A program made the translations under genes and the position numbers. A stretch of DNA of 64,000 nucleotides from Clostridia bacterium (GTDB lineage: Bacteria; Bacillota; Clostridia; RGIG6154), in assembly GCA_017626145.1 (NCBI GenBank), contig JAGAJK010000034.1, forward strand, positions 124,001 through 188,000. The letters run 5' to 3'. Numbering within the stretch: the first letter of the stretch is position 1; each line of letters opens with the position of its first letter. Below, piece after piece: positions 19,248 through 43,568 of this stretch. Under the pieces are notes generated by a model. That model had not been told where the DNA came from and did no database searches. It saw only the letters and a program-made list of their open reading frames with translations.

Positions 19248-19261
19248 ACTTTCAAAATAAA

Positions 19262-19530
19262 CGCTAAGATGCGGAATAGTACGTAAGAATTTTCGCTTTG
19301 AGAGAAATGCCGGGTGGTGCGAGGCATAGCGAGGGACTTTCGGAACTCACCGCGGAGCGGCTGCCGTGAAAATCACAGTAGGGGCAGACGGGAACTCCCG
19401 TAACAGAGTTAAGATGTGTTAGCATCTAAAGGGCATCCTTTTGGGTGAAGAAGAGTGGTACCGCGGAAACAAAATGAATTTTAACGTTTTCGTCTCTTTG
19501 AATCGACATTGAGACGGAAGCGTTTTTTTG
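19262..19530 (+). promoter_or_regulatory. T-box riboswitch, specifier probably CUC (Leu)
   Basis: The leader carries the T-box core AGAGTGGTACCGCGG (19453-19467), the AGTA element of the specifier loop (19278-19281), a GAGAGA motif and an ACGGG/CCCGT stem. A strong terminator follows, AACGTTTTCGTCTC (19482-19495) with GAGACGGAAGCGTT (19511-19524) and a T-run. Pairing GCGG (19271) with CCGC (19350) as the stem I base places CTC (19346-19348), followed by A, at the specifier position. That reads leucine and fits a LeuA-like gene downstream. The T-box is certain; the specifier is inferred from hand folding. Confidence 0.92.
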
Positions 19531-42564: not shown

Positions 42565-42583
42565 AATGTCAAGAGGTGATATA

Positions 42584-42787
42584 TTGAAAGGGTTAAAGCA
42601 AATCAGAAAAGAGAGGAAATTGACACAGCTTAAGGTTGCAATGAATTTAAATATTTCACGTGAGGCTCTTTCACACTATGTGAACGGCAAGCGTGAACCG
42701 AGCATAGAATTGCTTGTTAAAATGTCTCGGTATTTTAACGTTTCTATTGATTTTCTTATCAACGGAAAGGAGTTTGAAAAATTCTGA
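42584..42787 (+). CDS. Cro/C1-type HTH repressor
   Basis: 67 residues from TTG 42584, with AGAGGTG 6 nt upstream. An ATG at 42566 is in frame but lacks an RBS. Full XRE domain (Arg-Lys-Leu-Thr-Gln-Leu-Lys-Val-Ala-Met-Asn-Leu-Asn-Ile-Ser-Arg-Glu-Ala-Leu-Ser-His). A palindromic operator precedes it. Confidence 0.9.
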   Translation: MKGLKQIRKERKLTQLKVAMNLNISREALSHYVNGKREPSIELLVKMSRYFNVSIDFLINGKEFEKF

Positions 42788-42808: not shown

Positions 42809-42853
42809 AAGGGGGAAGTAAAAAAATCATTGATTTTTTTACTTCCCCTTAAG
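42809..42853 (+). terminator. Strong terminator after HTH repressor
   Basis: GGGGAAGTAAAAAAATCA and TGATTTTTTTACTTCCCC form an almost uninterrupted long stem. Confidence 0.85.
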
Positions 42854-42860
42854 TTTTTAA

Positions 42861-42889
42861 TAGACAATTTGAAAATTTTATGCTATACT
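42861..42889 (+). promoter_or_regulatory. Promoter of the structured leader
   Basis: TAGACA (42861-42866), 17-bp spacer, TATACT (42884-42889), 7 bp before the first helix. Confidence 0.65.
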
Positions 42890-42895
42890 AAAACT

Positions 42896-43041
42896 GCTAC
42901 GTATCTTAATATTCCCAAACACAGCTTTGCGTTAGGTAAAAACGCAGGCTTAGATTGTCATATCTGTGTTTGGTGTGAGATGCGTAGCAGCACATATCGA
43001 AGCTGCGTTTTTCATGCGTGGCTTCGGTCACGCATTTTTTA
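42896..43041 (+). ncRNA. Structured leader RNA with terminator, candidate riboswitch or attenuator
   Basis: P1: GCTACGTATCT (42896-42906) with AGATGCGTAGC (42978-42988). P2: CCAAACACAG (42915-42924) with CTGTGTTTGG (42964-42973). P3: TGCGTT/AACGCA (42928-42933 and 42941-42946). A GCAGC/GCTGC stem (42987-43006) shares bases with P1. Terminator ATGCGTG-N8-CACGCAT plus T-run (43014-43041). The RBS of the next gene begins only 7 bp later. I do not recognise it as any riboswitch class I know well. Confidence 0.6.
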
Positions 43042-43061
43042 TATTTTAGGAGGTTTTTACT

Positions 43062-43568
43062 ATGAACGAAAAAGTCCGCGAGTTCCTTGAGATGTGTAAA
43101 GAAGAGGAAATAAGGAGAAAATCGGAAACAGACAAAGTAACGAATGAGGAAAAAAACAAGCTACTTATTGATTTAGGTTTGTACGAAGAGGTGCCTTCTC
43201 CAAACGGTAAGTACAGCAAGGAATACCCGAATTTTATCGGATGTGATGAAAACGGCACTCCTATGTATTGCAAGTATGTTCCCGTTGATGTTACTGATGA
43301 GGAGTTTGAAAAAATAAAAAAATGTGCAAGCACACTTAGTTCGAATATAACTGAAGATGAAACAGAATCATATAAAAACGGTGTTGCGACAACATTGACA
43401 GTTATTGCTTGGGTGACATACATAGTTGGATTTATTGCAGGGCTATTACTTTGTGATGAAGTAGTGGCTTTGGGAATAGCAGAAATTGCAGCAACATTTA
43501 TAAGCGGAACTACTTTTCTTGGTTTTGCTGAAATCATTAAATTATTACAGGCTATTAAAAATAAATAA
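43062..43568 (+). CDS. Membrane protein of unknown function behind the structured leader
   Basis: 168 residues. The charged cytoplasmic N-terminal half (about 1-105) contains Leu-Leu-Ile-Asp-Leu-Gly-Leu-Tyr-Glu-Glu and Val-Pro-Val-Asp-Val-Thr-Asp-Glu-Glu-Phe-Glu. Similar phrases are common in small, unnamed proteins of gut Clostridia. Two hydrophobic helices follow (about 107-130 and 133-155). RBS AGGAGG (43048-43053) follows the terminator of the leader RNA, so expression probably needs read-through. Confidence 0.75.
   Translation: MNEKVREFLEMCKEEEIRRKSETDKVTNEEKNKLLIDLGLYEEVPSPNGKYSKEYPNFIGCDENGTPMYCKYVPVDVTDEEFEKIKKCASTLSSNITEDETESYKNGVATTLTVIAWVTYIVGFIAGLLLCDEVVALGIAEIAATFISGTTFLGFAEIIKLLQAIKNK

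Follow-up and report, generated by a model that had tools for sequence, protein, structure and literature searches.

What is the structured RNA that precedes an unnamed membrane-protein gene in a Clostridia bacterium, and by what means might it control that gene? The RNA occupies positions 42894–43041 of the window, the whole 64,000-nucleotide stretch of contig JAGAJK010000034.1 that was analysed. An earlier note, made from the letters of the DNA alone, took it for a new cis-regulatory leader in which an aptamer is joined to an expression platform. The structure was compared with its relatives in other genomes, with known RNA families, and with the genes that lie behind the related copies.

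Elements of the leader

The structured leader is real. The minimum free energy (MFE) of 42880–43062 is −63.8 kcal/mol, against −41.6 ± 3.7 kcal/mol for 200 dinucleotide shuffles (z = −6.0; 0/200 as good). In the MFE fold a closing helix, P1, joins 42894–42908 to 42976–42990 in 15 pairs, G-U pairs included; it leads through an internal loop, J1/2 (42909–42914), with a conserved AAUAUU-like sequence to a perfect 10-bp helix, P2 (42915–42924 with 42964–42973), and an inner hairpin, P3, around 42930–42942. The terminator (43014–43021 with 43028–43035, its U-tract reaching 43040) is followed by a ribosome-binding site (RBS), AGGAGG, at 43048–43053, and by the ATG at 43062 of the controlled gene (43062–43568), which encodes 168 amino acids with two hydrophobic stretches near the C-terminus. 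P1, P2, P3, the terminator and the RBS all lie where the earlier note had placed them, and all of these features are on the forward (+) strand.

Upstream of P1 is a sigma-70-type promoter (42861–42889, +), from whose position the transcript is predicted to start at about 42896, in the base of the 5′ strand of P1. It had been described as a consensus promoter; the promoter is present and its −10 hexamer is TATACT (42884–42889), but the −35 hexamer is TAGACA (42861–42866) and the spacing is 17 nt. The gene directly upstream of the leader, at 42566–42787 (+), encodes a 73-aa XRE-type HTH regulator (HTH_3) and has a strong terminator-like hairpin of its own at about 42812–42846.

Extent of the family and known RNA classes

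Divergent relatives of the leader were misaligned by MAFFT, and the starting covariance model, R1, was therefore built from the window copy and one trimmed relative, L011; the P1 sequences of these two are almost wholly different, yet P1 is paired in both. R1 matches at E ≤ 0.1, and mostly far below that value, in 89 of 391 Clostridia genomes (about a quarter), many of the sampled genomes being draft assemblies; owing to the strict filters of the large searches, this figure is a minimum. More than 150 places are found among the matches listed, with at least seven in the richest genome and some in tandem. A second model, R2, was unspecific at first look, and the search of 388 genomes drawn from across the phylum was repeated with R1: a match at E ≤ 0.001 was seen in the window's own genome only, which argues that the family is restricted to parts of the class and that R1 is specific. 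A loose first pattern scan had returned 44 contigs, which were judged to be chance matches and were not used.

Four copies are present in the window's genome. Every one of them runs straight into an RBS, and the gene behind it differs from copy to copy. Besides the window copy, one (L164; G000:C70:33298-33467) precedes a 'CCFFGHRKIEE' protein that is SLOG/DUF1273-like by eye, one (L165; G000:C90:87691-87882) a small putative lipoprotein, and one (L166; G000:C32:209597-209783) a putative secreted protein. Three-copy tandem arrays are present at L140 (G275:C138) and L100 (G341:C59), with a promoter and a terminator in every unit.

The anatomy of 104 distinct copies was analysed. A −10 hexamer of the form TANNNT stands upstream of P1 in 103 of them; 99 of these 103 boxes are 6 or 7 nt before P1, and 89 of the 99 also have a −35-like hexamer. 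Nearly every copy thus has its own promoter, the units of tandem arrays included, and the placement of the −10 box indicates that the transcript should start at P1. A copy forms a self-contained unit, about 160 nt long without its promoter. Conserved unpaired bases occur at several places: AAUAUU follows P1, with AAUA falling within nucleotides 10–22 in 78 of 96 members; the loop of P3 contains UGGUAAAA; the junction that follows P3 is rich in U; and AACA comes after the 3′ strand of P1 (P1′).

The whole window was scanned with Rfam 15 (4227 families). No match at gathering scores covers the window RNA, and a permissive scan gave weak, scattered, chance-like matches there; the matches elsewhere in the 64 kb are a T-box (RF00230; 19257–19500, +, 122.9 bits) and two tRNAs. 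Copies in about 40 further loci are overlapped by no Rfam match at gathering thresholds, and permissive scans of them were at chance level. On this evidence the leader belongs to a large RNA family that is absent from Rfam 15. A match to Gut-1 (RF01706) does lie about 250 nt upstream of one copy, at L111:3492-3563 (−), in sequence that resembles a MITE repeat.

These scans bear on whether the RNA might be a diverged form of a known riboswitch, T-box or type III antitoxin, all of which have in common with it a structured RNA, a terminator and an RBS. That is very unlikely in view of the Rfam results, and the gene downstream is neither recognisably ToxN-like nor an amino-acid gene. The T-box is, as here, a clostridial leader that chooses between antiterminator and terminator, but the genes behind the present family are diverse and unrelated to amino-acid supply, and the one T-box found in the window is that at 19257–19500, with no RF00230 match at the leader. 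The type III antitoxin RNA (ToxI) resembles the family in its own promoter, structured RNA, terminator, RBS and gene; the family differs in that no tandem short repeats were seen within the unit and that its genes fall into 28 unrelated protein clusters, none of them recognised as ToxN-like. The window protein in particular has no Pfam or PHROG match, and so no ToxN/TenpN/CptN-type nuclease assignment.

Comparable candidates from comparative genomics are the structured RNAs proposed from the human microbiome (PMC8040213) and the GC-IGR motif sets (PMC8632094, PMC11109978), in the main texts of which no matching motif was found. The literature search found no description of the family in main texts, and an unnamed entry in a supplementary list may exist. 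One further GC-IGR set of comparable candidates has reportedly been compiled.

The earlier note had named a match to a known class, or a lack of covariation among homologues, as grounds for giving up its reading. No known class matched the window RNA or the related loci scanned, and covariation is present in P1, P2, the terminator and the relay pairings described below; the leader stands as a new cis-regulatory candidate with covariation support, its own promoter, a terminator just before the RBS and no counterpart in Rfam.

Covariation and a five-segment relay

The search model contained P1, P2, P3 and the terminator, so that counts for these elements lean towards the model by which the members were found. 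With that reading, P1 shows changes on both sides at 12 of 12 pairs, with 98.6% of cells paired, and RNAalifold on 41 members predicted 30 pairs, 27 of them with compensatory changes, P2 and the terminator being among these. Two further pairings, A:B and 3:4 below, were absent from the model. When the columns of P1 and of the A:B pseudoknot are counted together, 91.4% are paired against 76.1% in shuffles (0/500 as good) and 33–52% in slid controls, and the covariation score is 0.444 against 0.166 in shuffles.

Five segments of the RNA are involved in these pairings. Segment 1 is the 5′ strand of P3 (CUUUGCGUU, 42925–42933). Segment 2, or A (42938–42951), takes in the 3′ strand of P3 together with the nucleotides that follow, and reads AAAAACGCAGGCUU in the window and AAAAAUGCAUGCUC in many other members. 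Segment 3, or B (42998–43012), lies downstream of P1′, and reads CGAAGCUGCGUUUUU in the window and GGAGCUAUGCAUUUUU in many other members; it is complementary to A and also to the 5′ arm of the terminator, which is segment 4 (43014–43021). Segment 5 is the 3′ arm with its U-tract (43028–43040). Compared across the family, these segments form two mutually exclusive sets of pairings, 1:2 with 3:4 against 2:3 with 4:5, of which 2:3 is predicted to be a long-range pseudoknot and 3:4 is a conserved antiterminator that excludes the intrinsic terminator 4:5. In the window copy segment 3 has an energy of −16.1 with segment 2 and −17.8 with segment 4.

Each member's own partners were compared with partners swapped in from other members. 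The A:B duplex energy is −16.2 for own partners and −11.2 for swapped ones (z = −16.8), and own pairing is likewise better for B with the terminator arm (z = −12.3) and for the 5′ strand of P3 with A (z = −14.3). Shuffles and swaps model ancestry incompletely, a concern that is lessened by dissimilar representatives and by control pairings: among 23 representatives less than 72% identical, the three z values are −8.2, −5.9 and −8.7, respectively (0/5000 permutations as good), whereas control pairings outside the relay give −0.8 to −1.1. In 92 of 100 members each of the four relay pairings is stronger than −7 kcal/mol, a value that composition-matched shuffles pass in 9–22% of cases for the three duplexes tested.

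Two other arrangements were considered and set aside. The stem competing with P1 that the earlier note had proposed is not conserved and finds no support as the switch; it can form in the window (GCUGCG with CGUAGC, −10.2 kcal/mol), but in that sequence alone, and across 100 members the pairing of B with P1′ is no better for own (−4.53) than for swapped partners (−4.65). P3 and the UUUUU of segment 3 might instead have joined in a U-A-U triple helix, but this is disfavoured as well: each of the two strands runs antiparallel to the A-tract, and their variation is concerted, as in Watson-Crick partners, so that strand exchange is the preferred explanation. Linkers of about 7 to 12 nt each have to carry the pseudoknot across P1 and P2; the fit is tight, and these helices may have to open in part.

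Comparison of members establishes the family with its promoters, P1, P2, the terminator and every relay pairing; from these we infer that the RNA controls read-through, in which direction, and in response to a signal. We consider it probable that the window RNA acts in cis as a transcription attenuator, whose P1-P2-P3 core senses a signal and whose relay decides on termination. The promoter would start the RNA at P1; P1, P2 and P3 would fold first, with segment 1 paired to segment 2. Were P3 kept closed, segment 3 would bind the 5′ arm of the terminator (3:4) and polymerase would read into the gene; were segment 2 to pair with segment 3 instead, the 5′ arm would be free, the terminator 4:5 would form, and transcription would stop before the RBS. 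The choice would be set by a signal on the core, for which a small signalling molecule or a metabolite is the likeliest candidate, and this signal may favour either read-through or termination. In the window copy, with the pseudoknot excluded, the nested fold that holds the antiterminator is favoured over the one with the terminator by 5.4 kcal/mol, and termination therefore seems to need the pseudoknot to take segment 3 away.

Of the proposed aptamer and platform, the platform is thus conserved, but as a five-segment relay with a long-range pseudoknot, and a ligand-binding aptamer in the core is plausible. If the RNA is a riboswitch, AAUAUU, GGUAAAAA and the U-rich junction are the candidate ligand-responsive positions.

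In riboswitches that attenuate transcription (c-di-GMP-I/II, guanidine-IV, preQ1), a structured core comes first, and an antiterminator and a terminator that exclude each other lie between it and the RBS. The family shares this order, and the diversity of its genes resembles that generally known for second-messenger classes; it differs in its five-segment relay, in the pseudoknot from an inner-hairpin strand to the antiterminator strand, in having no Rfam match, in the promoter at P1 of nearly every copy, and in its gene-less copies. Ribosome-mediated attenuators of the trp type have similar chained and overlapping alternative pairings that end in a terminator, but four segments rather than five; the family has a core with a pseudoknot and conserved loops, and no leader peptide stood out as conserved among its members.

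Downstream genes and gene-less copies

The earlier note had the leader control the gene of a two-helix membrane protein. It does precede that gene; the RNA is not tied to it, as most homologues of the protein are without the leader and most copies stand before unrelated genes. Homologues L003, L004, L007, L014, L015, L018 and L019 have ordinary upstream regions from which the leader is absent, and a recognisably similar leader was found only at L011 and L006/L017, and in part at L009. The window protein belongs to no known family by Pfam or PHROG; its homologues L003, L014, L015, L016, L018 and L019 form an unnamed Clostridia family with FLGFAEIIKLL at the end, in which the leader is mostly absent.

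An open reading frame starts within 45 nt of the match end in 58 of the 104 copies, behind an RBS on the same strand, as it does in the window and in four of four copies in its genome. By BLAST, 57 downstream proteins fall into 28 clusters, the largest of which are BspA-type LRR proteins (12), small cysteine-rich MIIDxTGI proteins (7), small MNIKVELLKNY proteins (5) and MENYKSFYH proteins (4), with many singletons. Pfam assignments for 47 of the 57 include LRR_5 (11), Cu_amine_oxidN1 (2), and SLH, GDSL, CHAP, dockerin and TerB (1 each). The cysteine-rich protein, MIIDITGIELIPGNxGKDCPGNGxxxNECCCDECNYxCC, recurs behind the RNA (7/57), as at L077, L085, L105, L107, L113 and L117. No one ligand can be read from the downstream genes; their diversity is unlike that of a one-pathway riboswitch, suggesting a second messenger or another general signal.

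Such targets, and the many copies per genome, would suit the regulon of a protein as well as a second messenger. An RNA-binding antitermination protein on the P1-P2-P3 core could then set the relay in place of a small molecule, a reading that we regard as possible though clearly not the favoured one: no regulator gene is seen consistently beside the copies, and no Rfam family of protein-binding leaders matches.

About a fifth of copies are without an adjacent gene: a convergent gene is nearby in about 21 of the 104, and no gene was found for 3. Ten copies precede another copy. All four relay pairings are retained in 95% of the 19 gene-less copies that were examined, which in this respect match the leaders, so that a role in trans and gene loss are both candidates for them. 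L111 has an intact RBS but lacks a start codon nearby, which suggests that its gene was lost.

A free-standing sRNA family acting in trans, for example through A and B strands on other copies, with the downstream genes in part passengers of read-through, would account for these copies and for the promoter at P1 of nearly every one, tandem units included. We think it unlikely, since the 58 copies directly before an RBS and reading frame leave little room for a second promoter and the convergence of the relay on the 5′ arm of the terminator is a signature of attenuation in cis.

Multiple copies, some in tandem, with diverse flanking genes could also mark a mobile or selfish MITE-like repeat with hairpins that act as DNA. 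This is hardly credible: even tandem neighbours are only 63–86% identical (67% for random pairs), the RNA relay is preserved by compensatory changes, and more than half of the copies point the same way with respect to the RBS that follows them. An origin from phages was rejected as well; blastn against phage and plasmid records gave no match, and viral contigs yielded neither exact family patterns nor a relative of the protein.

Cis attenuation is thus the reading that we carry forward. In kind the RNA would be a transcription-attenuating leader; what sets it apart within that kind is the fused promoter, the five-segment pseudoknot relay, the tandem units and the gene-less copies. For a family that has gone undescribed and has no Rfam entry, presence in roughly a quarter of the sampled Clostridia genomes, at several copies each, is a wide spread, and the predictions that follow from the relay are precise enough to be tested in a single in vitro transcription experiment. 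More speculatively, and with considerable doubt on our part, the unit might be a self-contained sensor of a common signal that Clostridia place before unrelated surface- and small-protein genes and also keep in free-standing copies, the latter acting in trans on the leaders through A and B strands to form a network. Several of the carrier bacteria come from gut and rumen samples. The targets (BspA-type LRR, S-layer, dockerin, CHAP, GDSL and small cysteine-rich proteins) suggest that the cell surface is controlled by a common signal, and the identity of the ligand could therefore reveal a signalling route in these bacteria.
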